Below are positions 124 through 15,382 of a stretch of 15,382 bases of DNA, one piece after another. Position 1 is the first letter of the stretch, and each line of letters opens with the position of its first letter. The DNA comes from Pseudomonadota bacterium (GTDB lineage: Bacteria > Pseudomonadota > Gammaproteobacteria > Burkholderiales > Thiobacillaceae). The stretch spans positions 1 to 15,382 of the forward strand of contig JAKBJA010000179.1 of assembly GCA_021836225.1 (NCBI GenBank). Direction: 5' to 3'. Below the pieces are notes generated by a model. It was not told the origin of the DNA and did no database searches. It saw only the letters and a list, made by a program, of their open reading frames with translations. A program made the translations under genes and the position numbers.

Positions 124-226
124 GAGTTTTCAGAATTAGGGTTATAAATGGCAAATGCCGGTTCGGTGCCGGCGTGGGCTTTTTCGGCACAGCGGGATAA
201 CAGGCAAAGATAATAGACGTTCGACT

Positions 227-1171: not shown

Positions 1172-1232
1172 AGTATGGAACCTGGACACTTCAGTTGACC
1201 GCTTCCAACGCTACGAAATACCGCCTGTCGAA

Positions 1233-2141: not shown

Positions 2142-2169
2142 GAACACGCGATGGCAGGGGCGGGCGCGG

Positions 2170-2175
2170 TAAAAT
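2170..2175 (+). promoter_or_regulatory. Possible -10 element (TAAAAT) upstream of rph
   Basis: TAAAAT lies in the 61-base gap between the phosphatase and rph, 27 bases before the rph ATG. It matches the sigma-70 -10 consensus at five of six positions. No convincing -35 hexamer is found 16-18 bases upstream. The surrounding 11-mer GGTAAAATTGC (2168-2178) recurs exactly before the halogenase gene (4725-4735), which supports a promoter-like role for both. Weak on its own. Confidence 0.35.
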
Positions 2176-2202
2176 TGCGCTTTCCCTTACCTGACCGTTG
2201 CC

Positions 2203-2931
2203 ATGTCTGTCATTTTCCGTCCCAGCGGCCGCGCGCCCGACGCGCTGCGCACCCTGTCGTTCACCCGCAAGTTCACCAAGCACGCCGAAGGTTCGGTGCT
2301 CGTCGCCATGGGCGACACCCGCGTGCTGTGCACCGCCAGCGTGCTGGACAAGGTGCCGCCGCACAAGAAAGGCAGCGGAGAAGGCTGGGTGACGGCCGAA
2401 TACGGCATGCTGCCGCGTTCCACCCACACCCGCACCGACCGCGAAGCCGCGCGCGGCAAGCAGTCGGGCCGCACCCAGGAAATCCAGCGCCTGATCGGGC
2501 GCAGCCTGCGCGCCGTGGTCGACCTGAAAAAGCTCGGTGAGCGCACGATCCATCTCGACTGCGACGTGCTTCAGGCCGACGGCGGCACCCGTTGCGCCAG
2601 CATCTGCGGTGCCTGGGTGGCCGTTGCCGACGCCATCGCCGGCCTGCTCGCCGAGGGCAAGCTTGCCGAAACCCCGCTTACCGGCAGCATCGCCGCCGTC
2701 TCCGTCGGCGTCTATCAGGGCCAGCCGGTGCTCGACCTCGATTACATCGAGGATTCGGACTGCGACACCGACATGAACGTGGTGATGACCGGCAGCGGCG
2801 GCATCGTCGAGGTGCAGGGCACCGCCGAAGGCACGCCGTTCTCGCGCGCGACGCTCGAGGCACTGCTTGACCTGGCGACTGCCGGCATCGGCCAGATCAC
2901 CGCGGCCCAGCACAAGGCGCTGGCAGCATGA
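2203..2931 (+). CDS. rph: Ribonuclease PH
   Basis: RNase PH is a phosphate-dependent 3'-to-5' exoribonuclease that trims tRNA precursor 3' ends and takes part in rRNA decay; it acts as a hexameric ring in the cytoplasm. The 242-residue product matches the usual length of about 238. Recognisable blocks are [12 protein letters not shown] near the N terminus, [24 protein letters not shown], the Arg-rich [28 protein letters not shown] and the C-terminal [16 protein letters not shown]. The phosphate-binding arginines of the R-x(n)[11 protein letters not shown] region are kept. The start at 2203 gives the canonical N terminus. It overlaps rdgB by four bases (ATGA), so the two are translationally coupled. 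The pairing rph-rdgB is widespread in proteobacteria and links RNA turnover with nucleotide-pool cleaning. Nothing unusual seen. Confidence 0.97.
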
Positions 2932-3518
2932 AGAAACTCGTCATCGCCTCCGGCAATCCGGGCAAGCTGCGCGAGATTGCGCGCATCCTCGAACCGCTCG
3001 ACATCGTCGCCGCGCCGCAGTCCGATTTCGGCGTCCCCGAATGCCCCGAGCCGCACGTCACCTTCGTCGAGAACTGCCTCGCCAAGGCGCGCCACGCCAG
3101 CGCCCACACCGGCCTGCCGGCGCTGGCCGACGATTCCGGCATCTGCGTCGAGGCCCTGAACGGCGCACCCGGCGTGTATTCCGCGCGCTATGCCGGCGAG
3201 CCGAAATCCGATGCGCGCAATAACGACAAGCTCATCGCCGCCCTTGCGGGGCAGCCCAACCGTCGTGCGCACTATTACTGCGTGATGGTGCTGGTGCACT
3301 ATGCCGACGACCCCGAGCCGCTGATCGCCGAGGGCCGCTGGTTCGGCGAGATCATCGACACTCCGCGTGGCGAGAACGGCTTCGGCTACGACCCGTATTT
3401 CCTCGTTCCCCAGTTTGGAAAAACCGGCGCCGAGCTCGGCGAGGACGAGAAGAACGCCGTCTCGCATCGCGGCCAGGCCTTGCGCGAACTGGCCGACAAG
3501 CTGAAGCGGCTTGGCTGA
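2928..3518 (+). CDS. rdgB: RdgB/HAM1 dITP/XTP pyrophosphatase
   Basis: This house-cleaning enzyme hydrolyses non-canonical purine nucleoside triphosphates (dITP, ITP, XTP) to the monophosphate plus pyrophosphate, keeping deaminated bases out of DNA and RNA. The 196-residue length is normal. Motifs seen: the substrate-binding N terminus [13 protein letters not shown] (5-17), [21 protein letters not shown] (67-87) with catalytic-region Asp69, the GFGYDPYF block and the C-terminal SHRGQAL. The ATG overlaps the rph stop by four bases, and the 3' end overlaps the hemW start by eight. The gene is thus the middle of an overlapping rph-rdgB-hemW unit. No deviation from the family was noticed. Confidence 0.97.
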
Positions 3519-4689
3519 GTCGGTTATCCGCGTTTTCAGCGGCGGCCTGACAGTCCAGCCGCCGCTGTCGCTCTACATCCACCTGCCGTGGTGCGTGAGG
3601 AAGTGCCCGTACTGCGACTTCAACTCGCACGCGGCGCAGGGCGTTCCCGAAGCGGCCTACGTCGACGCGCTGCTGCTCGATCTGGAACGCGCGCTGCCCG
3701 ACATCTGGGGACGCAGGATTCATACCGTGTTCTTCGGCGGCGGCACGCCCAGCCTGTTTTCGGCGGAGGGCATCGACCGCATCCTGACCGGCGTGCGTAC
3801 GCTCACCCAATTGATCCCGGGCGCCGAGATCACTTTGGAAGCCAACCCCGGGACGGTGGAGGCCGCCAAATTCGCCGGCTTCCGCGAGGCGGGGGTGACC
3901 CGGGTGTCGCTCGGCATCCAGAGCTTCAACCCGCGCCATCTGCAGGCACTCGGGCGCATCCATGACGACAGCGAAGCGCGCCGCGCCGCCGAGCTCGCCG
4001 CCACCCATTTCGACACCTTCAACCTCGACCTGATGTATGCGCTGCCGGGGCAGGCGCTGGCCGAGGCGATGGCGGATATCGACACCGCGCTGACATTCCG
4101 GCCGCTGCACCTGTCGGCCTACCACCTCACGCTGGAACCCAATACGCCGTTCGGCCACAGCGCGCCGCCCAACCTGCCGGACGACGACCTGGCTGCCGAC
4201 ATGCAACTGGCGATCGAGGCGCGCCTCGGCGAAGCCGGCATGCAGCACTATGAAACCTCGGCCTACGCGCGGCCCGGTCATGCCAGCCGCCACAACCTCA
4301 ACTACTGGCAGTTCGGCGATTACCTCGGCATCGGTGCCGGCGCGCATTCCAAGCTCAGCTTCCACGACCGCATCGTGCGGCAGATGCGGGTGAAGCATCC
4401 GCAGCAGTATATGGATGCGGTGAAAGCGGGCACCCACATTGCCGACACCCGCAGCCTCACGCGCGCCGACCTGCCGTTCGAATTCATGATGAATGCGCTG
4501 CGGCTGACCGAAGGCGTGCCCGCCGCGCTGTTCGAGGAACGCACGGGCCTGCCGCTGATCGTCTGCGCGGCTGCGCTCGAGAAGGCGCGCGGCCTGGGCT
4601 TGCTGGCGCGCGATGCGAGCCGGCTTCGGCCGACGCTGCAGGGGCAGCATTTCCTGAACGATCTGCTGGCGTTGTTTTTGCCGGCCTAG
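3511..4689 (+). CDS. hemW: Radical-SAM heme chaperone HemW
   Basis: A 392-residue radical S-adenosylmethionine protein of the HemN-like group. The iron-sulfur cluster motif is WCVRKCPYC, with Cys28, Cys32 and Cys35, followed by DFNSH as in HemW proteins; FFGGGTPS (74-81) binds SAM. HNLNYW (261-266) is the HNxxYW motif that marks the heme-carrying HemW subgroup and separates it from true coproporphyrinogen oxidase HemN. HemW is thought to deliver heme to respiratory proteins at the membrane. The start is a TTG at 3511 inside the end of rdgB: an in-frame stop lies at 3502-3504, and no ATG or GTG occurs before the cluster motif, so TTG is the only usual choice (a CTG at 3547 is less likely). Translation is probably coupled to rdgB. 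It is the last backbone gene before the pigment cluster. Confidence 0.95.
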   Translation: MAESVIRVFSGGLTVQPPLSLYIHLPWCVRKCPYCDFNSHAAQGVPEAAYVDALLLDLERALPDIWGRRIHTVFFGGGTPSLFSAEGIDRILTGVRTLTQLIPGAEITLEANPGTVEAAKFAGFREAGVTRVSLGIQSFNPRHLQALGRIHDDSEARRAAELAATHFDTFNLDLMYALPGQALAEAMADIDTALTFRPLHLSAYHLTLEPNTPFGHSAPPNLPDDDLAADMQLAIEARLGEAGMQHYETSAYARPGHASRHNLNYWQFGDYLGIGAGAHSKLSFHDRIVRQMRVKHPQQYMDAVKAGTHIADTRSLTRADLPFEFMMNALRLTEGVPAALFEERTGLPLIVCAAALEKARGLGLLARDASRLRPTLQGQHFLNDLLALFLPA

Positions 4690-4726
4690 CAGGGGCATGC
4701 GCTACCAGCAATGCGGGTTGTTTGGG

Positions 4727-4732
4727 TAAAAT
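4727..4732 (+). promoter_or_regulatory. Possible -10 element (TAAAAT) for the rightward pigment arm
   Basis: TAAAAT lies in the 109-base gap after hemW, about 66 bases before the halogenase ATG. It sits in GGTAAAATTGC (4725-4735), an exact 11-base repeat of the sequence before rph. No clear -35 lies at the normal spacing. This is the only intergenic space before the rightward arm, so a promoter is expected here; the exact position is tentative. Confidence 0.35.
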
Positions 4733-4785
4733 TGCCCTGTTTTTCAGTCTAAGCGGACAGAGCCTTTCGCCGTGCTGCCGTCATC

Positions 4786-4792
4786 CGAGGAA
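4786..4792 (+). promoter_or_regulatory. Ribosome binding site of the halogenase-like gene
   Basis: A GAGGAAA stretch ends about six bases before the ATG at 4799. It decides that start over the in-frame GTG at 4772, which would add nine residues and has no comparable Shine-Dalgarno sequence. Confidence 0.6.
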
Positions 4793-4798
4793 AGTCTC

Positions 4799-6142
4799 AT
4801 GTCGTACGATTCCATGCCTTCCGGTCCTGCCGACCACCATTGTGATGTCCTGGTGGTTGGCGGCGGCCCCGCCGGCTCGACTGCCGCCACGCTGCTGGCG
4901 CAAAAAGGCCACCGGGTCACCCTGCTGGAGAAGGCGCATCACCCGCGTTTCCACATCGGCGAATCCCTGCTGCCGGCCAACCTGCCGCTGTTCGAGAAAC
5001 TGGGCGTGCGCGCCGAGGTGGAGGCCATCGGCATGGAGAAATGGGGGGCGGAATTCGTCTCGCCCTGGCACGAGCACCAGCAGAGCTTCGAGTTTGCCGA
5101 CGCCTGGGACAAGTCGATGCCGCGCGCCTACCAGGTGCGCCGCTCCGAGTTCGACGAGATCCTGATCCGCAATGCCGCGCGCAAAGGCGCCGAGGTCATC
5201 GAAGGCTGCCGCGTGCGCGACGTGGAATTCCTGCCGAACGACGAAGGCGCCAACGTCCGTGCAGAGCACGACGACGGTCGCAGCGTGACCTGGCAATGCC
5301 GGTTCCTCGTCGACGCCTCGGGCCGCGACACCTTCCTCGGCAACCGTTTCCAGGCCAAGCAGCGCAACCCCAGGCACAACAGCGCCGCGCTCTATGGCCA
5401 CTTCAGGGGCGCCCAGCGGCACACGGGCAAGAAGGAAGGCCACATCACCATCTTCTGGTTCGAGCATGGCTGGTTCTGGTTCATCCCGCTCGCCGACGGC
5501 ACCACCAGCATCGGCGCAGTGACCTGGCCGACCTATCTGAAGACCCGCAAGAAGCCGGTGCAGGACTTCTTCTTCGACCTCATCGCCCAGTGCCCGGCCC
5601 TGGCGGCGCGGCTGAAGGATGCAGAACTCGTTTCGGAAATCGAGGCCACCGGTAACTTTTCCTATGCCTGCGACCGCAGCCACGGTCCCAACTACCTGCT
5701 TCTGGGCGATGCCTACGCCTTCATCGATCCGGTCTTCTCGTCCGGCGTCATGCTCGCCATGAACAGCGCCTTCGTCGGCGCCGATGCGGTGGATGCCTGC
5801 CTGCGCCAGCCGGAAAAAGCGGCGAGGGCACTCAAGCATTTCGACCGCATGATGAAGCACGGGCCGAAGGAATTCTCCTGGTTCATCTACCGTGTCACCA
5901 ACCCCACCATGCGCGACCTGTTCATGTCGCCACGCAATGTTTTCCGGGTGAAGGAAGCGCTGCTGTCGGTGCTGGCCGGTGACATCTTCGGCAGGACGCC
6001 GATCTGGCGTTCGCTGCTGGTTTTCAAGGTGATCTATTACCTGGCCTCACTGACCAACCTGAAACGCACGATCGGGGCGTGGAAGCGGCGCAAGTTGAAT
6101 ATCCGCTATGTTGAAGATGCGGAAGGGGCCGGCAGCCGATGA
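4799..6142 (+). CDS. Flavin-dependent halogenase-like FAD oxidoreductase
   Basis: A 447-residue FAD protein of the tryptophan/phenol halogenase superfamily. It opens with CDVLVVGGGPAGSTAA (15-30), the GxGxxG dinucleotide fold, then FHIGESLLPANLPLFEKLG (51-69), typical of the phenol- and pyrrole-halogenase branch. Lys81 in MEKWGAEF sits where the catalytic lysine of these halogenases is expected. GWFWFIPL (224-231) matches the halogenase signature GWxWxIP. LLGDAYAFIDPVFSSGV (301-317) is the second FAD contact. Xanthomonadins are brominated aryl polyenes, and homologues of this protein occur in their clusters, so halogenation of the aryl head is a reasonable role. A non-halogenating monooxygenase or polyene reductase cannot be excluded. 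It is the first gene of the rightward arm, and its stop overlaps the chorismatase ATG (ATGA). The C-terminal region (about 390-430) is basic and hydrophobic and may touch the membrane. Confidence 0.82.
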   Translation: MSYDSMPSGPADHHCDVLVVGGGPAGSTAATLLAQKGHRVTLLEKAHHPRFHIGESLLPANLPLFEKLGVRAEVEAIGMEKWGAEFVSPWHEHQQSFEFADAWDKSMPRAYQVRRSEFDEILIRNAARKGAEVIEGCRVRDVEFLPNDEGANVRAEHDDGRSVTWQCRFLVDASGRDTFLGNRFQAKQRNPRHNSAALYGHFRGAQRHTGKKEGHITIFWFEHGWFWFIPLADGTTSIGAVTWPTYLKTRKKPVQDFFFDLIAQCPALAARLKDAELVSEIEATGNFSYACDRSHGPNYLLLGDAYAFIDPVFSSGVMLAMNSAFVGADAVDACLRQPEKAARALKHFDRMMKHGPKEFSWFIYRVTNPTMRDLFMSPRNVFRVKEALLSVLAGDIFGRTPIWRSLLVFKVIYYLASLTNLKRTIGAWKRRKLNIRYVEDAEGAGSR

Positions 6143-7179
6143 AGCACGCGGAAGCGATGCTGCGGCTGGAGGTTCTGCCCGCGTCCCGCCTTGTCCGACT
6201 GGGCGGCGACGAACGCGGCGGGGTGCTGGGCGGCGCCTGCTTTTCGCATCCGGCCTGCCCGCCCGATATCGGGGATTTTCCTGTCCTGGCCGTGGACATG
6301 GCCCTGCCGCCCGGTGAAGAGCCGATCTGTGAGGTCTGGCATAGCCATGAAGCGCTGCAATCCGGCCAGCATGGTCCTATCCGCTATCGCCATGGCGACA
6401 CGCTGCTGTTCGGCTGCCTGAGCCTGGACGAATCCGCCGTGGCGGCCCTCAACGATGCGCGTGCGCCTCTGCAGGCCGCGACGGAATCCGCCTACCAGGC
6501 CATTTTCGCGTTGCTCGATGCCCGCGGTTATCACGCCATCCTGCGCTTCTGGAACTATTTCCCCGCGATCAACCGGGAAAGCCACAGCATGGAGCGCTAC
6601 CGCCAGTTCAACATCGGCCGCCAGGATGCCTTCCTGGCCCACGGCCGCTCGGTCGTCGACAAGGTGCCCGCCGCCTGCGCCCTTGGCTCCGCCGCCGGCG
6701 GCCTGCACATTGCCTTTCTCGCGGCGCGGGCGGACGTGATTGGCGTCGAGAACCCGCGCCAGGTCAGTGCCTACCACTACCCCAGCCAGTACGGGCCGCG
6801 CAGCCCGACCTTCGCGCGCGCAGGCCTGGTCAAGCTGGGGGGGCGCGACATGCTGTTCATCTCCGGCACAGCCAGCATCGTCGGTCACCAGACGCTGCAC
6901 CACGGCGATGTGTCGGCGCAGACGCGGGAATGCATGAACAACATCGCGGCCATCGTCGCCGAGGCCAACCGCCTGGCGACGGGCGCCGGTTTTCGCCTCG
7001 ATACGCTTGCCTACAAGGTCTATGTCCGACATCCTGAAAATGTGGACACGGTCCGTCGCGAAATGGCGCAGTTCATTGGCGGTGCGGTGTCGGCGGTCTT
7101 CCTGCAGGCCGATGTGTGCCGCGCCGACCTGCTGGTTGAAATCGAGGCCTCGGGCGGCCATGCAATCGGTCCCGCTTAA
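6139..7179 (+). CDS. xanB2: XanB2/FkbO/Hyg5-type chorismatase (hydroxybenzoate synthase)
   Basis: A 346-residue chorismatase, often annotated as pteridine-dependent deoxygenase-like. The family converts chorismate to hydroxybenzoates or dihydroxycyclohexadiene carboxylate with loss of pyruvate; XanB2 yields 3- and 4-hydroxybenzoate, and 3-hydroxybenzoate starts xanthomonadin. Diagnostic blocks are RFWNYFPAIN (136-145), YRQFNIGRQDAF (154-165), GVENPRQVSAYHYP (202-215), LFISGTASIVGHQT (239-252), HHGDVSAQT (254-262) and CRADLLVEIEA (327-337) with the acidic active-site residue(s) Glu334/Glu336. Both the chorismate-binding and catalytic regions look intact. The ATG overlaps the halogenase stop by four bases, and a GGAAGGGG stretch about ten bases upstream can serve as Shine-Dalgarno. 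It should feed the aryl-polyene synthase encoded by the opposite arm, and may also supply 4-hydroxybenzoate for ubiquinone. Product specificity within the family is not settled by inspection. Confidence 0.9.
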   Translation: MKHAEAMLRLEVLPASRLVRLGGDERGGVLGGACFSHPACPPDIGDFPVLAVDMALPPGEEPICEVWHSHEALQSGQHGPIRYRHGDTLLFGCLSLDESAVAALNDARAPLQAATESAYQAIFALLDARGYHAILRFWNYFPAINRESHSMERYRQFNIGRQDAFLAHGRSVVDKVPAACALGSAAGGLHIAFLAARADVIGVENPRQVSAYHYPSQYGPRSPTFARAGLVKLGGRDMLFISGTASIVGHQTLHHGDVSAQTRECMNNIAAIVAEANRLATGAGFRLDTLAYKVYVRHPENVDTVRREMAQFIGGAVSAVFLQADVCRADLLVEIEASGGHAIGPA

Positions 7180-7204
7180 ACGGGGTTTTCATTCGGAACA
7201 TGCC

Positions 7205-8044
7205 ATGTCTTTCCACCGTCGCCTGACCCTCGCCGTGCTGTTGCTCGCCGGCATTTCAGCCGGCCACGCCTGCGCTGCTGTGAAACCCCTGTGGGAACTG
7301 GGCATCGGCATGAGTGCCCTGTCTTTTCCTGACTATCGCGGTTCGGACCAATCCAGCCTCTATGCCATTCCCTTCCCCTACCTGGTCTATCGCGGCACCT
7401 TCCTGAAGGCAGACCGGAACGGCATCCGTGGCACCTTGTTCGACAGCGACCGCATCGAACTCAGTGTCAGCGTCGGCGCCTCGTTGCCGGTGAACAGCGA
7501 CGACAACCAGGCCCGGCAGGGCATGCCCGACCTGCATCCGACGGTGGAGATCGGACCTTCGCTCGACCTCAATCTGTGGCGCACCCACGACCGGCGCACC
7601 ACACTGGACCTGCGCCTGCCGGTCCGCACCGCCGTCACCGTGGCAAACGGCATGCACGACATCGGCTGGGTGTTCTCGCCGCGCCTCAACCTCGGCATCG
7701 TCGACGTCGGAGGGCTTGCGGGATGGAATCTGGGGCTGCTCGCCGGACCCGTGATGGGGTCGGAGCGCAACCATGACTATTTCTATTCGGTGGCGCCGCA
7801 CTATGCCACCGCCGACCGCCCGGCCTTCGAGGCCGAGGGAGGTTACGCCGGCAGCCAGTTCATGCTGACGGTGTCGAAGCGCTATCCGAAATACTGGGTG
7901 GGCGCGTTTGCGCGCTGGGACAGCCTCAAGGGCGCCGCATTCGACGACAGCCCGCTGGTCCGGCAGGAGAGCTATTTTGCCGCCGGTGTCGGCATCGCCT
8001 GGATCCTCGGCGAATCGTCCACCCGCGTCGAGGCGGTCGAGTGA
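7205..8044 (+). CDS. MipA/OmpV family outer-membrane protein
   Basis: A 279-residue secreted protein. Residues 1-24 form a signal peptide: basic MSFHRR, hydrophobic LTLAVLLLAGISAG, and a likely cut after ACA at residue 24. The mature part starts with the MipA/OmpV signature WELGIGMSALSFPDYRGSDQS (30-50), followed by PFPYLVYRGTF (56-66) and NGIRGTLFDS. The rest alternates polar and hydrophobic residues as in a beta barrel and ends with an ESYFAAGVGIAWIL strand. MipA of E. coli is a scaffold between murein synthase and lytic transglycosylase; many relatives have no known role. The ATG at 7205 gives a proper signal peptide; a second ATG at 7200 is out of frame. It starts 25 bases after the chorismatase, and its stop overlaps the acyltransferase GTG. 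Within a pigment operon it may help the polyene lipid reach or sit in the outer membrane (inference). Confidence 0.85.
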   Translation: MSFHRRLTLAVLLLAGISAGHACAAVKPLWELGIGMSALSFPDYRGSDQSSLYAIPFPYLVYRGTFLKADRNGIRGTLFDSDRIELSVSVGASLPVNSDDNQARQGMPDLHPTVEIGPSLDLNLWRTHDRRTTLDLRLPVRTAVTVANGMHDIGWVFSPRLNLGIVDVGGLAGWNLGLLAGPVMGSERNHDYFYSVAPHYATADRPAFEAEGGYAGSQFMLTVSKRYPKYWVGAFARWDSLKGAAFDDSPLVRQESYFAAGVGIAWILGESSTRVEAVE

Positions 8045-8880
8045 ACGCGCACCTGGCTTCGCTGCCCAGCCTGCCGCGGCGCTGGCTGCATCGGCTCTAC
8101 GAATATTTCGCCCTGTGGTTCGGCCTGGTGCTGCTCGGCGCGATTTCGCTGACCTGGTCGACGCTGTCCGTGCCGCTCTATTACGTCCTGCCCAAGCGCT
8201 GGGCCAGGCCGCTCGGACGCTGGGCCATCACCACCGGTTTTCGCAGCTATCTCGGCGCGCTGTCTCTCATCGGAGCCTGCCGCTTCGACCTCAGCGCGCT
8301 CGATGCCCTGCGCGCCGAAGGCCCGCTGGTCATCGCCCCCAATCACCCCTGTCTGCTCGACGCCGTGATGGTCATCTCGCGCCTGCCCAACATGACCTGC
8401 ATCATGAAAGCCGATATCATCGACAACGTCTTTCTCGGCGCCGGCGCCCGCCTCGCCGGCTACATCCGCAACGACGCGCAGCTGAGCATGATCAAGCAGG
8501 CCGTGGCCGATCTGAAAAACGGCAGCCACCTGCTGATCTTCCCCGAAGGCACCCGCACCACCCGCTGGCCGGTCAACGCCTGCAAGGGCACCACTGCGCT
8601 CATCGCCAGCCGTGCCCGGGTGCCGGTCCAGACTGTCTTCATCGAGACCGATTCGCCCTACCTCAGCAAGGGCTGGCCGCTGTTCCGCCGGCCGGCGATG
8701 CCGATCACCTATCGCATCCGCCTCGGCCGTCGCTTTGATCCGCCGGAAAAGGCCGGGACCTTTACCGAGGAACTGGAGCGCTACTTCATCGATGAACTGC
8801 GCGATGCGCCTCATTTCCTTCCGCCCGACGCCCCGCAGGCTACTGAATGCCGGGCCCCCGGCTTGTCTGATGTCGCCTGA
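8041..8880 (+). CDS. 1-acyl-glycerol-3-phosphate-type acyltransferase (LPLAT superfamily)
   Basis: A 279-residue acyltransferase of the PlsC-like superfamily. One hydrophobic stretch (about 24-50, beginning LWFGLVLLGAISL) anchors it in the inner membrane. The catalytic NHPCLLD motif (101-107) supplies the H-x4-D pair His102/Asp107; FPEGTRTTRW (167-176) is the phosphate-binding block, and an internal KADIIDN-like segment (123-129) matches the acceptor loop. In aryl-polyene clusters such enzymes are thought to attach the polyene acyl group to a lipid carrier, which fits here; ordinary phospholipid synthesis is less likely given the location. The start is GTG at 8041, overlapping the stop of the MipA gene (GTGA), so coupling is probable. 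The C-terminal tail past about 255 is rich in Pro and Ala and lacks family motifs. The 3' end overlaps the glycosyltransferase start by 11 bases. Confidence 0.9.
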   Translation: MNAHLASLPSLPRRWLHRLYEYFALWFGLVLLGAISLTWSTLSVPLYYVLPKRWARPLGRWAITTGFRSYLGALSLIGACRFDLSALDALRAEGPLVIAPNHPCLLDAVMVISRLPNMTCIMKADIIDNVFLGAGARLAGYIRNDAQLSMIKQAVADLKNGSHLLIFPEGTRTTRWPVNACKGTTALIASRARVPVQTVFIETDSPYLSKGWPLFRRPAMPITYRIRLGRRFDPPEKAGTFTEELERYFIDELRDAPHFLPPDAPQATECRAPGLSDVA

Positions 8881-9655
8881 CACGAACGTTTCAGCCAGCC
8901 ACCTGGTGCTGATCCCCAGCTATAACCCGGGGGCGCAGGTCTACGACACGGTGCGCGCTGCCCGTGCCCGCTGGGCGCCGGTGTGGGTGGTGGTGGACGG
9001 CAGCACCGACGGCACCGCCGAAGGCCTGCAGGACATGGCGGCGAATGACCCCCAACTGAAGGTTCTGGTGCTGTCGCAGAACCAGGGCAAAGGCGCCGCC
9101 GTGCTGCACGGTCTGGACCTCGCTGCGCAAGCGGGGTTTACTCACGCCCTGACGATGGACTCCGACGGCCAGCACCCGGCCGACCTCATCCCGGCCTTCA
9201 TGGCGGCCTCGCAACAGGCGCCCGGCGCGATGGTCCTCGGCAAGCCGGTATTCGATGCCGACGCCCCCGCGCTGCGCGTGCAGGGGCGCAAGGTGTCCAA
9301 CGGCTGGGCCAATCTGGAGACCCTGTGGGCGGGCATCGGCGATTCGCTTTACGGTTTTCGCGTCTATCCGATCGACCCCTTGCGCCAGGTGATGCGCGGC
9401 CAGCGCTGGATGCGCCGCTTCGACTTCGACCCTGAAGCCGTGGTACGCCTGTGCTGGCGCGGCGTGCGCCCGATCAACCTGCCCGCGCCGGTGAAATACC
9501 TGCGCGCCGACGAAGGCGGCGTGTCCCACTTCAACTACCTGCGCGACAACACCCTGCTCACCTGGATGCATCTCCGGCTGATGCTGGGCTTCCTGCTGCG
9601 CCTGCCGCTTCTGCTGCTGCGACGCCGGAACACTCACCGGTCAAACACCCCATGA
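8870..9655 (+). CDS. Family 2 glycosyltransferase
   Basis: A 261-residue GT-A type transferase. LVLIPSYNPG (12-21) opens the nucleotide-sugar fold, VVDGSTDGT (41-49) follows, NQGKGAAVLHGL (71-82) matches the dolichol-phosphate-mannose-synthase-like subgroup, and MDSDGQH (96-102) holds the metal-binding Asp motif. The C terminus (about 235-255) is a leucine-rich, basic segment that may bind the membrane rather than span it. The open frame extends upstream to 8612 inside the acyltransferase, but the ATG at 8870 places the fold at the N terminus and gives an 11-base overlap, consistent with the rest of the operon. Glycosyltransferases with this look sit beside the acyltransferase in several aryl-polyene and xanthomonadin clusters, and probably add a sugar to the polyene head group or lipid carrier. 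Donor and acceptor are unknown. Confidence 0.88.
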   Translation: MSPDTNVSASHLVLIPSYNPGAQVYDTVRAARARWAPVWVVVDGSTDGTAEGLQDMAANDPQLKVLVLSQNQGKGAAVLHGLDLAAQAGFTHALTMDSDGQHPADLIPAFMAASQQAPGAMVLGKPVFDADAPALRVQGRKVSNGWANLETLWAGIGDSLYGFRVYPIDPLRQVMRGQRWMRRFDFDPEAVVRLCWRGVRPINLPAPVKYLRADEGGVSHFNYLRDNTLLTWMHLRLMLGFLLRLPLLLLRRRNTHRSNTP

Positions 9656-10425
9656 AAAACACCCGCAATCCGTCCGCGCACGCGGTGCATGCTCCACATC
9701 CGCCCCTCACCGGCTACTACGCCAGCGAACAGGAGCGGCGCGGCTTCGTCGGCAAGCTGTTCGACAACACCGCCTCCGACTACGACCGCATCGATCGCCT
9801 GCTGGCCCTGGGCAGCGGCCCCTGGTACCGCAACCAGGCGCTGCAGCGGGCGGGCCTGAAACCCGGCATGCGCATCGTCGACATCGGCGTTGGCACCGGC
9901 CTGGTGGCGTGCGAAGCGGTGACACTGGTCGGTGATACTGCCCTGGTGGTGGGCGTCGATCCCAGCGCCGGCATGATGGCCTGCGCGCACCTGCCGGGCG
10001 TCCAGCTCGTCGAGGGGCGGGCGGAGGCGATCCCGTTTCCGGATGCCAGCTTCGATTTCCTCAGCATGGGTTACGCGCTACGCCACATCGGCGACCTGTC
10101 GGCCGCCTTCAGCGAATTCCATCGCGTCCTCAAGCCCGGCGGCCGCCTGTGCCTGCTCGAGATCACCAAGCCTGAACGCGCCTGGAGCCAGGCGCTGCTC
10201 AAGGTCTACATGCGTGGCGTAGTGCCGGTGCTGGCCCGAATGATCGGCAGCAGCGCCGAATCGGCCAGGCTGTGGCGCTATTACTGGGACACCATCGAAG
10301 CCTGCGTGCCGCCGAGCGGGGTGATCGATACGCTGGAGAGCGCCGGCTTCACAGGGGTGCGTCGGCATATCGAAACGCGGGCGCTGTCGATCCTGGCCGA
10401 GTACCAGGCGGTCAAGCCGGGCTGA
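9652..10425 (+). CDS. UbiE/COQ5-like SAM-dependent methyltransferase
   Basis: A 257-residue class I methyltransferase. The SAM-binding motif I is RIVDIGVGTGL (74-84), with VVGVDPSAGM (99-108) as the acidic ribose contact, FDFLSMGYALRHI (134-146), and FHRVLKPGGRLCLLEITKP (156-174). The segment YDRIDRLLALGSGPWYRN (44-61) and the overall layout resemble UbiE/COQ5 quinone C-methyltransferases, but the CVPP-containing C-terminal part and the first 20 Pro/His-rich residues differ. The ATG at 9652 overlaps the glycosyltransferase stop (ATGA); the open frame upstream of it lies inside that gene and was rejected. In this setting it most likely methylates the aryl head of the polyene on carbon or oxygen; aryl polyenes and xanthomonadins carry such methyl or methoxy groups. 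A second ubiquinone-pathway enzyme is the alternative. It is the last gene of the tightly coupled rightward set. Confidence 0.85.
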   Translation: MKNTRNPSAHAVHAPHPPLTGYYASEQERRGFVGKLFDNTASDYDRIDRLLALGSGPWYRNQALQRAGLKPGMRIVDIGVGTGLVACEAVTLVGDTALVVGVDPSAGMMACAHLPGVQLVEGRAEAIPFPDASFDFLSMGYALRHIGDLSAAFSEFHRVLKPGGRLCLLEITKPERAWSQALLKVYMRGVVPVLARMIGSSAESARLWRYYWDTIEACVPPSGVIDTLESAGFTGVRRHIETRALSILAEYQAVKPG

Positions 10426-10443
10426 GCGTCCAGGCAAGCCAGG

Positions 10444-10452
10444 TGCAATAAT
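10444..10452 (+). promoter_or_regulatory. Possible extended -10 promoter before the PagL-like gene
   Basis: TGCAATAAT in the 58-base gap after the methyltransferase matches the extended -10 pattern TGnTATAAT at all but one defined position. It ends 31 bases before the ATG at 10484. No -35 hexamer is visible, which an extended -10 does not strictly need. It may let the PagL-like gene be expressed separately from the coupled genes upstream. Confidence 0.35.
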
Positions 10453-10483
10453 TTGAACCCATCGGCATTCCTGAGAAAACTTC

Positions 10484-11095
10484 ATGAGTGATCTGTTTCT
10501 ACCCATTCGGTCTACGCTGCCCGGCGCGGTTTTATCCCTGCTTGCCCTGTTGTCCAGTCCGGCCCATGCCCAGAGTCATCCCGCTGACCGTTGGGAAGTC
10601 GCGATCGAAGCGGGTTATCTGGAAAAAGTCAGAAACAACTCCCCGCTGGACTACGTCATCGCACCCCTGCAAGTGGCCTGGCGCTCGCCTGCACTGTTCG
10701 ATCTGTGGAATGGGGAAAGCGGCGCACGCCTGACCGTGCGCAACCGGATCGCGGTCATTTACGAGACCTATCTGGAGGGCGCCGAGGACTATTATTTCGC
10801 TTTTGCCGGTGCGCCCAGCTTCGAGTTGTGGTCGGCCGATCAAAAGACCGCGCTGTTCTTTGAAATCGGCGGCGGCGCGGGGCTCACCGATTCAACCGAC
10901 ATACCCGGTGGGCAAGGACAGGACCTCACGTTCAACTGGTTCAGCCAGCTAGGGCTGCGTTATCAGTTCGACAAGAAACAGGCATTCACGGCAGCCGGAT
11001 ATTTCACGCACCACTCCAATCTGGGTATGACCGCTCCCAACCCAGGGATCGATGTTTTAGGCCTCAATCTTGGGATGGTTTGGCAGTTCGATTGA
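10484..11095 (+). CDS. PagL-like lipid A 3-O-deacylase family outer-membrane protein
   Basis: A 203-residue secreted beta-barrel protein. The signal peptide spans 1-29 (hydrophobic core LPGAVLSLLALLSS, cut after AHA). The mature part shows barrel strands such as WEVAIEAGYLEKV (37-49) and ALFFEIGGGAGLTD (123-136). The PagL-family end block is FTHHSNLGMTAPNPGID (174-190). His176 and Ser178 fit the catalytic H-x-S of PagL, and the Glu expected 14 residues after the His is Asp190 here. PagL removes the 3-O acyl chain of lipid A in the outer membrane; whether this protein does so, or acts on the polyene lipid, is unknown. Base composition is clearly lower in GC than the genes before it (about 52-62% in five hand-counted 60-base lines, against about 70% in lines from neighbours). 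It ends 58 bases from the end of the convergent antiporter gene. Confidence 0.78.
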   Translation: MSDLFLPIRSTLPGAVLSLLALLSSPAHAQSHPADRWEVAIEAGYLEKVRNNSPLDYVIAPLQVAWRSPALFDLWNGESGARLTVRNRIAVIYETYLEGAEDYYFAFAGAPSFELWSADQKTALFFEIGGGAGLTDSTDIPGGQGQDLTFNWFSQLGLRYQFDKKQAFTAAGYFTHHSNLGMTAPNPGIDVLGLNLGMVWQFD

Positions 11096-11153
11096 TCGTC
11101 TAGCGGGCTGGGTCGCACGCTTGCTTTGCGCGCAATGATGAAGCGGATGCGTC
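11096..11153. other. Convergent junction between the two pigment arms
   Basis: A 58-base gap separates the stop codons of the PagL-like gene (plus strand) and the antiporter gene (minus strand). No hairpin followed by a T run was seen on either strand, only an imperfect GCACGC/GCGCGC pairing without a U tract. Transcripts from the two arms may therefore overlap, or termination is factor-dependent. Confidence 0.6.
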
Positions 11154-12470
11154 TCAGTGCCGGCCCGCAACCGCCACCCCCATCTTCGGCAGCCAGCGCC
11201 GCAATCCCGGCGTCGTGATCACCGTGCTGAAAATCGCCATCAGCACCAGCATGGTGAACATTTGCTGCGAGATCACGCCGAGGTCGTAGCCGACGTTGAT
11301 GACGATGAGCTCCATCAGCGCGCGGGTGTTCATCATGATGCCGATCACCTTGCCCTCGTGGTGCGACATGCCGGCCCAGCGCGCGGCGACGTAACTGGCG
11401 CCGAATTTTCCCAGGGTGGCCAAGGCGATCAGCAGCAGGCACCAGCCCCAGGCGGCGGCGGAATCGAGGCCGCCGACGTTGGTGCGCAGCCCGGTGTAGG
11501 TGAAGAAGATGGGCAGGAAGAAGACCATGACGAAATGGCCGATGCGTTCCTTCCAGGCCTCGATGAGTTCGTGCTCGTCATGCAGGATCACGCCCATCAT
11601 GAAGCCGCCGAAGATGGCGAAGATGCCGAGCTGATAGGTGGTCATCGCCGAGACGAAGATGGCGGCGAGCAGGATGCCGAGCAGGTTGTGGGTGAGCTTG
11701 CCGCGTCCGGCCTTCTCGCCCACCGGCACTGGCTTGGCCTGGCTTGCATGGATCACGCGCTTCATCAGCGGCCGCACGACGAACCACCAGGTGAGGAAAA
11801 ATACCCCGACCAGCGCCACCTTGAAAGCGAAGGCGGCGGCGCTGAACTGGGCCAGGGCGAGCGCGGTGATCAGCGCGAGCAGCAGCCAGCCGATGACGTC
11901 GTTGATGGCGGCGGCGCTGATGGCGATGACGCCGATGGGCAGGCGGGTGATCTTGAACTCGATCATGATGCGGCCGAGGATGGGCAAGGCGGTGATCGAG
12001 AAGGCGGTGGCGATGAACAGCGCCGAGGCGAGCGGGTCGACGCCGGGCGACAGCAGCGGCGCGCTGAACCAGCCGAAGCCGAAACCGAGCGCGAAGGGCG
12101 CGACCATGCTGGCGCTGGCGATGGCGGTGACGGCGCGGCGGTTGTTGCGCTCGGTCAGGTGGGCGAAGTCGAATTCCAGGCCGATCTGGAACATCAGCAG
12201 GATGAGGCCGATCTGCGACAGCATCTGCATCGGCGCCGCCGGCGTCGAATGAAAAACAGTTTGAAAAAGATCGGGCGCGAGCAGGCCGAACAGCGACGGG
12301 CCGAGCAGGATGCCGACGATGATTTCGCCCACTGCCGGCGACTGGCCGACGCGCTGCGCCAGTTCGCCGCCGAGGCGGGCGGCCAGGACAATCACCATCA
12401 GCTGCAGCAGGGTGAAGAACAGCAGCGCCTCGGTCTGGTGGACCGCGAGGGTATGGGCGGAGGTGCTCAA
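11154..12470 (-). CDS. CPA2-type cation/proton antiporter (KefB/NapA-like)
   Basis: A 438-residue integral membrane protein with about 12-13 hydrophobic segments. Typical CPA2 features are QSPAVGEIIVGILLGPS (43-59), IGLILLMFQIGLEFDF (87-102), AFSITALPILGRIM (156-169) and AAAINDVIGW (186-195), the ion-binding site. The pair is Asn190-Asp191, where electrogenic NapA-like exchangers carry Asp-Asp; Asn-Asp suggests electroneutral exchange, but this cannot be settled here. No cytoplasmic RCK/TrkA-N or USP domain follows, so it is the bare transporter. The start is TTG at 12468-12470: a strong GGAGGG lies five bases upstream, and the TTG overlaps the stop of the ketoreductase gene (TTGA). It is therefore the last gene of the leftward polyketide operon rather than an unrelated neighbour. 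Its ion and its job in pigment formation are unknown. Confidence 0.9.
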   Translation of the reverse strand: MSTSAHTLAVHQTEALLFFTLLQLMVIVLAARLGGELAQRVGQSPAVGEIIVGILLGPSLFGLLAPDLFQTVFHSTPAAPMQMLSQIGLILLMFQIGLEFDFAHLTERNNRRAVTAIASASMVAPFALGFGFGWFSAPLLSPGVDPLASALFIATAFSITALPILGRIMIEFKITRLPIGVIAISAAAINDVIGWLLLALITALALAQFSAAAFAFKVALVGVFFLTWWFVVRPLMKRVIHASQAKPVPVGEKAGRGKLTHNLLGILLAAIFVSAMTTYQLGIFAIFGGFMMGVILHDEHELIEAWKERIGHFVMVFFLPIFFTYTGLRTNVGGLDSAAAWGWCLLLIALATLGKFGASYVAARWAGMSHHEGKVIGIMMNTRALMELIVINVGYDLGVISQQMFTMLVLMAIFSTVITTPGLRRWLPKMGVAVAGRH

Positions 12471-13186
12471 ATCATCCCTCCATTGACCGAGATGATCTGG
12501 CCGCTGATGTAGCTCGCCTGCTCCGAGGCGAGGAAGCTCACCAGGTTCGCCACCTCGTCCGTCCGCCCGGCGCGCTTCATCGGCACCAGGCTCTCGATGG
12601 CCTTGGCGTCGAACACGCCGGCTATCATCCCGGTCTGGATGATGCCCGGCGCCACGGCGTTGACCGTCACCCCGCGGCTGGCGAGTTCCAGCGACAGCGA
12701 CTTGGTGGCGGCGTGCAGCGCCCCCTTGGCGGCGGCATAGTTGACCTGGCCGCGGTTGCCGGTGAGGCCGGCGATGGAAGTGATGTTGACGATGCGCCCC
12801 CAGCGGCTGCGCAGCATCGGCATCGTCAGCGGCTGGGTGACGTTGAAGAAGCCGCTGAGCGAGACATCAAGTACGCGGTGCCACTGCGCCGCGCTCATGC
12901 CGGGGAAGACGGCGTCGTCGTGGATGCCGGCGTTGTTCACCAGCACTTGGATCGGCGTGTCGGCGACCAGTGCCTCCAGCGCGGCGCGGCTGGCGTCGGC
13001 GTCGGTGACGTCGAAGGCGATGGCTTCGGCCTGTCCGCCACCCTGCCTGATTTCGTCAGCCAGCGCCTGCGCTTTAGCCAGGTTGCGGTTGGCGTGGATG
13101 TAGACGTAACAGCCGTCGGCGGCGAGGCGGCGGCTGATCGCCGAGCCGATGCCGCCGCTGCCGCCGGTGACCAGCGCGCACTTCAT
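12467..13186 (-). CDS. apeQ: ApeQ/FabG-like 3-oxoacyl-ACP reductase
   Basis: A 239-residue short-chain dehydrogenase/reductase. TGGSGGIG (7-14) is the NADP-binding glycine motif, NNAG (84-87) the structural block, and Ser137, Tyr150 and Lys154 (ITSIAG, NYAAAKG) the catalytic set. PGIIQTGM and the final SGQIISVNGGMI match FabG-type reductases. The Asn of the usual N-S-Y-K tetrad (VNL in most relatives) appears as Ser109 in DVSLSGFF. It should reduce the beta-keto group formed in each chain-extension round of the aryl polyene, using NADPH on an ACP-bound substrate. Its ATG overlaps the dehydratase stop by four bases and its stop overlaps the antiporter TTG, so it is coupled on both sides. Named by its position after an ApeP-like gene; a plain fatty-acid FabG is less likely. 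Confidence 0.88.
   Translation of the reverse strand: MKCALVTGGSGGIGSAISRRLAADGCYVYIHANRNLAKAQALADEIRQGGGQAEAIAFDVTDADASRAALEALVADTPIQVLVNNAGIHDDAVFPGMSAAQWHRVLDVSLSGFFNVTQPLTMPMLRSRWGRIVNITSIAGLTGNRGQVNYAAAKGALHAATKSLSLELASRGVTVNAVAPGIIQTGMIAGVFDAKAIESLVPMKRAGRTDEVANLVSFLASEQASYISGQIISVNGGMI
12476..12481 (-). promoter_or_regulatory. Strong Shine-Dalgarno for the antiporter TTG start
   Basis: On the minus strand this reads GGAGGG, five bases before the TTG at 12468-12470. It lies inside the last codons of the ketoreductase gene and is the best ribosome binding site seen on this arm. It decides the TTG as start, since no ATG is available in that frame nearby. Confidence 0.65.
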
Positions 13187-13632
13187 GTCGGGTCTCCCAG
13201 TTTGTCGGCGTCCATCACCACGGCGGCGCGGCCGCTGAGCAGTTCGTGCCCGGCGGCGCTGACGCGAAAGCCGTACAGGATCGTGTTGCCATCGCCGGAC
13301 AGACGCTCCGCCTCGACGGCGAGGTCGGCGGCGATGTCGTCCAGCCGCATGACATGCAGATCGATGCCGCGCACGCTGGCCAGGTAGCCGGCACGCGGCG
13401 CACCGTCGGCCGCCGCCAGCAGCGCGCCGTGGGCGGCCATCGCCTGCGCCGCGTACTCGATGCCGCAGGCCGCACCCAGGCGGTCATGCGCTCTCAGCGG
13501 GTTGGCGGCATCGCGGTGGCTCGACGCCGTACAGCGGATGCGCTGGGCATCCCACTCGCTGACCGTGTCGAGCAGGCACATGCTGCCCTGGTGCGGCAGG
13601 TGGGCGAGCAGCCAGGCGTGGTCTAGCGGCAT
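13183..13632 (-). CDS. apeP: ApeP-like hotdog-fold 3-hydroxyacyl-ACP dehydratase
   Basis: A 149-residue single hotdog-domain protein. LPHQGSMCLLD (12-22) is the ApeP-type N-terminal motif with the presumed catalytic His14, and LGAACGIEYAAQAMAAHGAL (52-71) forms the central helix with the presumed catalytic Glu59. The C-terminal half (GYLASVRGIDLHV onward) holds the expected beta strands. It would remove water from the 3-hydroxyacyl-ACP after ketoreduction, leaving the trans double bonds of the polyene. In the E. coli and Xenorhabdus aryl-polyene systems ApeP works as a heterodimer with a second dehydratase, ApeI; no ApeI-like gene lies in this window. It overlaps the CLF gene upstream by ten bases and the ketoreductase downstream by four. 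Family assignment rests on motif and context, since hotdog proteins share little sequence. Confidence 0.85.
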   Translation of the reverse strand: MPLDHAWLLAHLPHQGSMCLLDTVSEWDAQRIRCTASSHRDAANPLRAHDRLGAACGIEYAAQAMAAHGALLAAADGAPRAGYLASVRGIDLHVMRLDDIAADLAVEAERLSGDGNTILYGFRVSAAGHELLSGRAAVVMDADKLGDPT

Positions 13633-14420
13633 GGTGCGACCGCCACCGCCAGACGCAGCGGCGCCAGGTAATCCAGCATGACCTGTTTGCTTGTCCCCCG
13701 CGCCACGGCCTGCAGCAGCGGCAACCCGCGCGCGCAGGGAATGGCGCGGCGCAGCGCTTCGAGTTCGGGCTCGGCCAACCTGTCGGGCTCGGCGTCGGCG
13801 AGGCTGACCTCGATCCGAGCCAGCGAGCGCGCACTCTGCGCCGGCATCAGCGCCAGCGCAATGCCGAAGGCCCCGGGAAGCGGACGCTTGGCGTGCATGG
13901 GCTCGGGATAGGGCATGTCGTAGGTGATCAGCAGCGTGCCGTCACCCGCGACCGCGACCTGCGCCATGGCCTCCAGCAGGCCGGCGCCGAAACTGCCGTC
14001 GTGGGCGCACAGCACCGTGGCCGGGGTCATGGCGCCGGAGGCGATGCCCCAGTAGCCCGCCGGGGCGTTGTGCACCGAGTTGTGAAAACGGGTCGGCGAG
14101 ATGTGGCGGTCGTCGGAGGCCAGCACCTTGCAGAGGGCATCGCAATTGTCGTTGTCGGCGCCGGAGGACGAAAACACCGTGGCCAGCTGTCTGGCATCGA
14201 GCTGTCCGTTGGCGCAGGCCTCCTGTCCCACCGCCAGCGCGACCTTGATCGCGAGGCCGGTGCGGCGGCGCTCGGCAGGCGGCAGCGCCTGCGGCGCGGG
14301 CACCGTAAGGGGGCGCGCTTCGTAGGGGGCGGCGCCTGCGAGGATGGGCTGCGCCGCGAGCCAGTTGTCGAGCCCCGGCCCGATCAGGCCGATGCCGTCG
14401 AGGTAGGCGGCGAGCTTCAT
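13623..14420 (-). CDS. apeC: Short ketosynthase-like chain-length factor (ApeC-like)
   Basis: A 265-residue protein resembling only the N-terminal half of a beta-ketoacyl synthase. TVFSSSGADNDNCDAL (81-96), SPTRFHNSVHNAPAGYWGIA (108-127) and ATVLCAHDGSFGAGLLEAM (134-152) are the characteristic blocks. Aligned by eye with the neighbouring ketosynthase (VVSTACSSS), the catalytic cysteine position is Asp141, so it cannot condense by itself; Cys138 lies three residues earlier. Proteins of this type pair with a full ketosynthase and set chain length, as ApeC does with ApeO. The ATG at 14418-14420 overlaps the ketosynthase stop (ATGA). The open frame runs on upstream to about 15035, but that stretch lies inside the ketosynthase gene and looks like out-of-frame translation. 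The last ten bases overlap the dehydratase start. A stable pair with the upstream product is expected from the coupling. Confidence 0.87.
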   Translation of the reverse strand: MKLAAYLDGIGLIGPGLDNWLAAQPILAGAAPYEARPLTVPAPQALPPAERRRTGLAIKVALAVGQEACANGQLDARQLATVFSSSGADNDNCDALCKVLASDDRHISPTRFHNSVHNAPAGYWGIASGAMTPATVLCAHDGSFGAGLLEAMAQVAVAGDGTLLITYDMPYPEPMHAKRPLPGAFGIALALMPAQSARSLARIEVSLADAEPDRLAEPELEALRRAIPCARGLPLLQAVARGTSKQVMLDYLAPLRLAVAVAPCR

Positions 14421-15382
14421 TGCGCGCGCCCCAGGATCAGGCTGCAATTGGTGCCGCCGAAACCGAAGGCGTTGCTCAGCACCCGGCTGGGCGCGGCCAG
14501 CCGGTTCGCGGTCAGGTACTGGACGGGAATGCCCGGGTCGATGCGGCGCGTGTTGATCCCGCCCGGCAGGAAGCCCTGCTGCAGCGCCAGCGCGCTGATG
14601 ACCGCCTCGAGACCGCCGGCCGCGCCCAGGGTGTGGCCGGTCGCGCCCTTGGTGGAACTGCACGGCACGGCGTTGCCGAACAGCGCAGCCACCGCGCGGC
14701 CCTCGGCGGCGTCGTTGCTCGGCGTCGCGGTGCCGTGCAGGTTGATGTAGTCGATGTCGGCCGGCTTGAGGCCCGCCGCTTTCAGCGCGGCGCTCATCGC
14801 CATGTGTGCGCCCAGGCCTTCCGGGTGCGGCGACGACATGTGGTGGGCGTCGCTCGATTCGCCCGCGCCCAGCAGCAGCACGGCATCGGTGTCGAGGCTG
14901 TCGGCCGGGCGCTCGAGCAGCACGAAGGCGGCCGCCTCGCCGATGGACAGGCCGTTGCGATCCCCGTCGTAGGGCCGGCAGGGTTCGGGCGAAAGCAGCT
15001 CCAGCGAGTTGAAGCCGTACAGGGTAGTCAGGCACAGCGAGTCGACGCCGCCGACGATGGCGGCGTCGATCAGGCCGGCCGCGATCATCCGTGACGCCGA
15101 GGCGAACACCTTGGCGCTCGACGAGCAGGCGGTGGAGACCACCGCGGCCGGGCCCTCCAGGTTGAAGGCGGTGCGCACGAAGTCGGCCACCGAATAGGTG
15201 TTGTGGGTGGTGCGATAGTGGAAGTCGTCCGGCAGGGCGCCTGTCACCGGATCGCGGCGGCGGTAGGCCTGCTCGGTCTGCAGGATGCCGGAGGTGCTGG
15301 TGCCGAGCAGCACGCCGATGCGTCGGCGGCCGTAGCGTGCGGCGGCCGCGCCGACGGCGGCACTGAAACCATCCTGACGCAG
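14417..15382 (-). CDS. Beta-ketoacyl-ACP synthase (type II aryl-polyene KS), partial
   Basis: A leftward gene whose 5' end lies beyond the right edge; 321 residues are visible, out of about 400 for the family. The catalytic triad is complete: Cys in STACSSSAKVF (codon at 15125-15127), His in NLHGTATPSND, and His in STKGATGHTLGAAGG. GVLLGTSTSGI near the visible N terminus, RPYDGDRNGLSIGEAAAFVLLER, and the C-terminal SNAFGFGGTNCSLILGR are typical KAS I/II-like blocks. A GTG at 15311-15313 could be mistaken for the start, but the frame continues upstream with matching KS sequence (SAAVGAAAARYG) to the window end. It should condense malonyl-ACP with the growing aryl polyene, probably as partner of the CLF-like protein encoded next (stop and start overlap, ATGA). 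It could be equivalent to ApeO or ApeR; the order KS-CLF-DH-KR favours ApeO. Confidence 0.93.
   Translation of the reverse strand: MRQDGFSAAVGAAAARYGRRRIGVLLGTSTSGILQTEQAYRRRDPVTGALPDDFHYRTTHNTYSVADFVRTAFNLEGPAAVVSTACSSSAKVFASASRMIAAGLIDAAIVGGVDSLCLTTLYGFNSLELLSPEPCRPYDGDRNGLSIGEAAAFVLLERPADSLDTDAVLLLGAGESSDAHHMSSPHPEGLGAHMAMSAALKAAGLKPADIDYINLHGTATPSNDAAEGRAVAALFGNAVPCSSTKGATGHTLGAAGGLEAVISALALQQGFLPGGINTRRIDPGIPVQYLTANRLAAPSRVLSNAFGFGGTNCSLILGRAQ

Follow-up and report, generated by a model that had tools for sequence, protein, structure and literature searches.

What does the two-armed gene cluster at the right-hand end of this stretch of DNA make? The window, by which we mean the whole stretch of 15,382 nt that was analysed, contains a locus of interest at positions 4799-15382, in which seven rightward genes face five leftward genes, the outermost of the latter, encoding a ketosynthase (KS), being truncated by the right edge. 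We assign the locus, with a probability of about 0.88, to the xanthomonadin/arcuflavin type of aryl-polyene cluster, in a Thiobacillus-like betaproteobacterium; judged from its genes, the product is very likely a yellow membrane pigment, an aryl polyene of xanthomonadin type. An earlier interpretation of the same DNA (the sequence-only reading) had taken it for a xanthomonadin-like aryl-polyene cluster of a betaproteobacterium, with a chorismatase among its genes and two convergent arms of named gene classes. That reading is mostly upheld. All of these classes are present and their labels hold, the dehydratase being the weakest, and the KS and its chain-length factor (CLF) match solved ApeO:ApeC pairs best. 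The features of the window are as follows.

4799..6142, plus strand: flavin-dependent halogenase-like protein, ArcA-like (PF04820, E=1.8e-30; best PDB matches 8zop and 3e1t, named halogenase)
6139..7179, plus strand: chorismatase of the FkbO/Hyg5/XanB2 superfamily, ArcB-like (PF21168, E=1.9e-40; TIGR04444, 257.7 bits, below the cut-off of 325)
7205..8044, plus strand: MipA/OmpV-like outer membrane protein, ArcC-like (PF06629, E=1.6e-41)
8041..8880, plus strand: lysophospholipid-type acyltransferase, ArcD/ApeD-like (PF01553, E=2.6e-13)
8870..9655, plus strand: GT2 glycosyltransferase, ArcE-like (PF00535, E=6.5e-18)
9652..10425, plus strand: UbiE-like methyltransferase (PF01209, E=1.1e-30; UbiE equivalog, 146 bits, below the cut-off of 216)
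10484..11095, plus strand: PagL-like lipid A deacylase (PF09411, E=6.6e-22)
11154..12470, minus strand: CPA2-type Na+/H+ (cation:proton) antiporter, ArcG-like (PF00999, E=4.7e-49)
12467..13186, minus strand: ketoreductase, FabG/ApeQ-like (ArcH-like) (PF00106, E=4.2e-54; NF004200 FabG, 361.8 bits, above the cut-off)
13183..13632, minus strand: ApeP-like dehydratase, ArcI-like (PF22817, E=0.008, under the cut-off; 11-row profile against 6qsr_B, E=1.3e-5)
13623..14420, minus strand: CLF, ApeC/ArcJ/Lysobacter ORF16-like (PF13723, E=6.4e-24; PDB 7f28_A and 6qsp_B)
14417..15382, minus strand: KS, ApeO/ArcK-like, N-terminal end beyond the window edge (NF006618, 491 bits, over the cut-off of 407; CSSS active site)
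155-4689, all plus strand, left of the cluster: genes for a Ser/Thr kinase and a PP2C phosphatase, followed by rph, rdgB and hemW

The full-length KS of a relative locus, L026, gives its best PDB scores with 6qsp_A (265 bits) and 7f28_B (245 bits), and the window CLF has 7f28_A and 6qsp_B as its best matches (E about 1e-6). According to the cited part of PMC8358021, 6QSP is the ApeO-ApeC pair of Xenorhabdus doucetiae and 7F28 is an Acinetobacter pair. On these matches, the two window proteins are a KS of ApeO/ArcK type and a half-length CLF of ApeC/ArcJ type. Gln154 of the CLF is kept in 28 of the 29 aligned rows, the exception being L034 (rows are those of 55 sequences that passed 60% coverage and 30% identity). 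This residue falls where the glutamine that is essential to the Lysobacter CLF (in the cited part of PMC3691225) is expected, a likeness drawn by stretch rather than by direct alignment.

Each arm looks like an operon, a resemblance that rests on stop/start overlaps and short gaps. Four-base overlaps occur at 6139-6142, 8041-8044, 9652-9655, 12467-12470, 13183-13186 and 14417-14420, two longer ones of 10-11 bases are at 8870-8880 and 13623-13632, and the MipA and PagL genes each follow after a short gap. Some starts were chosen by us (ATG 7205 for MipA, ATG 8870 for the glycosyltransferase, and that of the UbiE-like gene), and the halogenase start at 4799 is an in-frame ATG within an open reading frame (ORF) that opens at GTG 4772. 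The arms are convergent, with 58 bases separating their stop codons (11095 and 11154). A scan of 10300-11400, between the arms, returned no promoter-like and no terminator-like sites, and a scan of 4500-5000, around the halogenase start, returned no promoters and one terminator-like site (0.7 in shuffles); neither scan is used as evidence.

A chorismatase search of genome contigs returned 24 loci, the best at 95% identity, and 17 of them are titled Thiobacillus, Thiobacillaceae or Hydrogenophilales. The genome of the best locus, G012, is the closest to the window, with 89-92% DNA identity on contigs L001 and L035; its alignments span window positions 1-10426 and 13146-15376 almost fully, and the middle falls at contig ends. 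One of the loci, L002, comes from T. denitrificans strain RG. From these relatives we infer a Thiobacillus-like bacterium as the source. When 200 genomes were drawn from the order, a chorismatase match was present in 25, two of them genomes already in the relative set, and 11 of the 23 new loci have the halogenase adjoining the chorismatase; short contigs make up several of the remaining 12.

The cluster continues past the right edge in these relatives. Beyond the KS, the leftward arm of G012 carries genes for a PAP2 phosphatase, a polysaccharide deacetylase, an MMPL exporter, LolA, an LpxL-like acyltransferase, an ApeI-like dehydratase, an AMP ligase, a small membrane protein (with a weak DUF3159/IspA match, under the cut-off) and an acyl carrier protein (ACP), the entire extension being on one strand. 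The domain names are taken from orthologues in L026, where the LolA-like carrier and the MMPL/RND exporter correspond to PF19574 and PF03176 and the ApeI-like dehydratase has a 4HBT match below the cut-off; the carrier and the exporter have orthologues in L035, and are seen in relatives only. In ten near relatives (G001-G009 and G012), the arm with the ligase and ACP directly adjoins the KS in nine, with PAP2 common to six of those nine, and both arms and the extension lie on one contig in seven (G001-G004 and G006-G008); in G012 the junction of the arms is hidden by a contig break. A ligase relative at E<=1e-30 is present in all 18 genomes of the relative set, and in 16 of them, G004 included, it is at least 68% identical to the G004 query; in G010 the identity is 56%, and in G011, where the match contains one in-frame TAA, it is 46%. 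All core enzymes are thus found either in the window or in its closest genome. The sequence-only reading had proposed looking past this edge for ACPs, a ligase, an ApeI-like dehydratase, a thioesterase, an MMPL exporter and a LolA-like carrier, and G012 and the other relatives have an ACP and all of the others except the thioesterase. The extension, together with the best matches of the KS and CLF to ApeO:ApeC, is why the aryl-polyene assignment holds.

An alternative is that the KS belongs to a different type II fatty-acid or polyketide system, which happens to neighbour a chorismatase. This would accommodate the antiporter, MipA and PagL-like genes, which are not obvious pigment genes, and the lack of a PagL counterpart among the listed arc genes. 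The KS, however, favours ApeO chains at the scores given above over FabF-type chains (<=176 bits), the dehydratases are of ApeP and ApeI type, and the gene order recurs in relatives, which argues that the arrangement did not arise by chance. On the NCBIfam and PDB rankings, which were taken to be sufficient for the KS, we consider such a system highly improbable.

Several observations do weigh against the aryl-polyene assignment. Window positions 10427-13145 have no aligned piece in the two G012 contigs that were compared. The dehydratase reaches only E=0.008 to the ApeP-like family PF22817, and it is the sole gene class without a Pfam match above the curated cut-off; a profile built from 11 orthologues reaches E=1.3e-5 against 6qsr_B, a chain of FabA/FabZ type that we take to come from the Xenorhabdus aryl-polyene work. 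In all 46 aligned chorismatase rows, the first glycine of the CH-II class is replaced by alanine (Ala181; glycine in Hyg5). The ligase/ACP arm of G005 is not beside the KS but some 16 kb past the halogenase, on the opposite side (L036, L028, G005:C14); in G009 the chorismatase arm (L021, G009:C28) and the KS/ligase arm (L033, G009:C46) are on separate contigs. Neither a thioesterase gene nor a second, ApeR-like KS is seen among the nine genes to the right of the KS in L026, based on best-domain calls. Finally, we infer the organism's own ligase and ACP from those of its relatives. The G005 layout is intermediate between the contiguous form and the unlinked arrangement of Azoarcus described below.

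Other KS matches in G001-G006, G008 and G009 are 35-38% identical, except for one of 65% in G003, and that in G001 is about 3 kb from a FabH-type match. The G003 match belongs to a second, more distant aryl-polyene-like set (L032, G003:C47:16800-36700), the main locus of that genome being L005/L037; this set may represent a second cluster, or else the metagenome bin may be contaminated.

The closest solved chains to the chorismatase are 5ag3/5a3k, which are labelled pteridine-dependent dioxygenase and which we take to be Hyg5, and the FkbO chain 4bps. Gly243 and Cys327 of the window protein match Hyg5, where FkbO has two alanines, and by spacing and alignment this later glycine and the cysteine are kept in 46 of 46 rows. 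For motif counts, rows are tblastn matches with at least 75% query coverage and at least 38% identity, which were met by 46 of 48 chorismatase sequences (L022, which is truncated, and L061 were left out) and 30 of 48 halogenase sequences; many of the sequences left out are at contig ends or have the gene elsewhere. CH-II chorismatases are characterized by three residues, Gly, Gly and Cys (in the cited part of PMC7170507), and the alanine at the first position sets the enzyme apart from the plain Hyg5 type. It may plausibly belong to a XanB2/ArcB-like subtype, and the predicted product is 3-hydroxybenzoate, perhaps plus 4-hydroxybenzoate, although the authors of the Azoarcus study caution that sequence alone does not accurately predict the product of a chorismatase (PMC3949708). 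The same alanine raises the odds that we give to a XanB2-like mixed product, and with it the possibility that the enzyme, like the bifunctional XanB2, feeds ubiquinone via 4-hydroxybenzoate in addition to the pigment. XanB2 and ArcB both give 3- and 4-hydroxybenzoate (PMC3949708), one of the three CH-II (Hyg5) residues is unmet in every row, and a UbiE-like gene is in the same operon. In the ArcB assay, on the other hand, 4-hydroxybenzoate also formed without enzyme (PMC3949708), and the position of the chorismatase, between the halogenase and the pigment genes, points to the pigment. We regard the dual role as possible and lean somewhat against it; supply of the pigment head group is the role we assign.

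Whether the pigment is halogenated is a separate question. Flavin motifs, WxWxIP and a catalytic lysine are marks of flavin-dependent halogenases, and the window protein has GGGPAG, WxWxIP and a candidate lysine. All 30 orthologues with at least 75% coverage retain both WxWxIP and the lysine, which lies in the KxGAxF region, and the best solved relatives are named halogenases. Halogenation of the pigment is nonetheless unproven, and we give equal weight to the same pathway with a non-halogenated pigment, in which the enzyme would be a ring flavin monooxygenase or would be idle when bromide is scarce. In Azoarcus a halogenase gene, arcA, occupies the same place, and arcuflavin is nonetheless not brominated (PMC3949708); in three of the 18 pathway genomes (G009, G011 and G015) no halogenase match at E<=1e-40 was found, which missing sequence may partly explain. 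The intact motifs speak for a working halogenase, as does the comparison in the cited part of PMC3691225, where Lysobacter lacks the gene and has a non-brominated pigment and Xanthomonas has the gene and a brominated one. A conserved halogenase set against the non-brominated Azoarcus product provides a clean test of the role of the enzyme. Two variations were observed among the relatives: the Thiobacillus bin G009 has a chorismatase arm (L021) with no halogenase match, and G014 has, in addition to an intact copy, two further homologues (G014:C249, 70%, and G014:C35, 69%), each with one in-frame TAA.

Since the gene order resembles arcA-L, the product might be a dialkylresorcinol-esterified polyene like arcuflavin. 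A dialkylresorcinol would call for a DarB-type synthase, and the StlD/DarB model NF005293 gives no match over its cut-off in any of the 18 relatives (genomes of unstated completeness). This suggests that the product is probably not a dialkylresorcinol ester, and arcuflavin itself is unlikely; overall, we find the esterified polyene very doubtful. The model is over the cut-off in two of 23 other chorismatase genomes and in one of 14 controls. Matches at E<=0.001 are common (39 of 41 genomes, with only two of the 41 over the cut-off); FabH-type matches share the position of at least some of these weak ones. Of 11 genomes, eight have a single match to the FabH-type family PF08541, G008 has two, and G006 and G010 have none; the extra match in G008 was considered as a DarB and rejected, because it scores best as a beta-ketoacyl-ACP synthase III and falls well short of the DarB cut-off. 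The arms are separated by 1.75 to 4.35 kb in L002, L005, L010, L014, L015, L016, L019 and L023, and the ORFs in between vary with the species; by eye they include one that is integrase/transposase-like (L005:14974-16146), an endonuclease/exonuclease-like one common to L010, L014 and L016, and others that are unnamed; such labels on their own exclude no dialkylresorcinol-type genes. The DarB result instead points to a different partner for the polyene, probably a lipid or glycolipid. The DarB-family synthases over the cut-off in the two other chorismatase-bearing genomes are at G129:C35:162231-163364 and G042:C14:8213-9331; in G042 the synthase and the chorismatase share a contig, at a distance of about 12 kb, and this organism is a possible arcuflavin-type producer.

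Gene content, gene order, orthology and active-site residues allow a pathway to be proposed for the xanthomonadin-type pigment. The chorismatase would convert chorismate to 3-hydroxybenzoate (perhaps with 4-hydroxybenzoate), which would be activated by the ligase and carried by the ACP, both of which are encoded past the right edge in relatives. The KS/CLF, the ketoreductase and two dehydratases would then extend it with malonyl units to a fully conjugated polyene acid, and the head group may be methylated by the UbiE-like enzyme and halogenated by the halogenase-like enzyme. An anchor of lipid or glycolipid nature is suggested by two acyltransferases, the GT2 enzyme, the polysaccharide deacetylase and the PAP2 phosphatase, which would join the polyene to it. 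Delivery to the outer membrane would fall to the MMPL exporter and LolA, and there the polyene would shield lipids from oxidants and light. Substrates, tailoring, anchoring and function are all predicted here from gene families. A more specific version, which we put forward as speculation and think unlikely to be right in full, is a dialkylresorcinol-free, halogenated, head-group-methylated aryl polyene on an outer-membrane glycolipid in a sulfur-oxidising Thiobacillus, where PagL and MipA would remodel the outer leaflet so that it can take up the polyene.

The surroundings of the locus are variable. Among the 24 loci, several of which are cut short, the kinase/PP2C/rph/rdgB/hemW neighbourhood is present only in L001 and L003; L002, L004, L005, L015-L018 and L020 have more than 8 kb upstream of the halogenase without this set. 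These differences in upstream neighbourhood indicate that the locus occupies different chromosomal places. In L003, L010, L012, L014, L016, L017 and L019, the order of the PagL-like and UbiE-like genes is reversed with respect to the window, and in these same loci the MipA match is short or absent.

With regard to known systems, the aryl-polyene clusters of E. coli CFT073 and Xenorhabdus share the biosynthetic core. Here there are counterparts of ApeO, ApeC, ApeP, ApeQ, ApeI and ApeH, as well as of ApeL (LolA-like), ApeM (RND exporter) and ApeD (acyltransferase); the differences are that no ApeR-like KS, no ApeK-like thioesterase gene and only a single ACP are seen in the stretch, and that there is a chorismatase, which the ApeA-R set as tabulated in the cited part of PMC8253772 does not have. 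A lipid or glycolipid anchor is considered there for the E. coli polyene as well (PMC8253772, same part). Lysobacter enzymogenes OH11 is similar in having a CSSS KS beside a half-length CLF (ORF16), two dehydratases and a cluster without a thioesterase gene, and it differs in having no halogenase (all in the cited part of PMC3691225). The Xanthomonas xanthomonadin cluster shares the XanB2 chorismatase, the halogenase and the AMP ligase, a likeness drawn from the relevant parts of the papers (PMC3949708, PMC3691225).

The closest counterpart is the arcA-L locus of Azoarcus sp. BH72, which runs halogenase, XanB2-type chorismatase, MipA, acyltransferase, glycosyltransferase, arcF, Na+/H+ antiporter, reductase, dehydratase, CLF-like protein, KS and arcL (PMC3949708). 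The window genes are in the same order and differ only at the position of arcF, where the window has the UbiE-like methyltransferase and the PagL-like gene; arcL would fall past the edge. The sequence-only reading had regarded the accessory genes as differing from those of classic clusters, a view that this correspondence does not support. A second arc locus carries a methyltransferase, polysaccharide deacetylase, exporter, LolA, acyltransferase, second dehydratase, ligase and ACP (PMC3949708), all of which have counterparts here, the methyltransferase being likened by label and not by sequence. In Azoarcus this ligase/ACP set is unlinked, whereas in the near relatives of the window it continues from the KS in nine of ten genomes and is contiguous with everything else in seven. 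The KS mutant and the ligase mutant of Azoarcus are both colourless (PMC3949708). Since the pigment is made from unlinked loci, the earlier expectation that an aryl-polyene KS must have ACP or ligase genes next to it was too strict.

Sideroxydans is an iron-oxidising lithotroph. Together with Dechloromonas and Variovorax, it is named as a carrier of arc-like clusters (PMC3949708), so that the literature already covers both the pathway and its occurrence in betaproteobacteria. Among the titles and opening lines of abstracts found for Thiobacillus with aryl polyene or xanthomonadin, none is about such a pigment in that group. Compared with Azoarcus, then, the present locus brings a new host and slight rearrangements to a cluster type that is already known, and does not amount to a new pathway; the range of a proven pigment pathway is extended to Thiobacillus-like bacteria.

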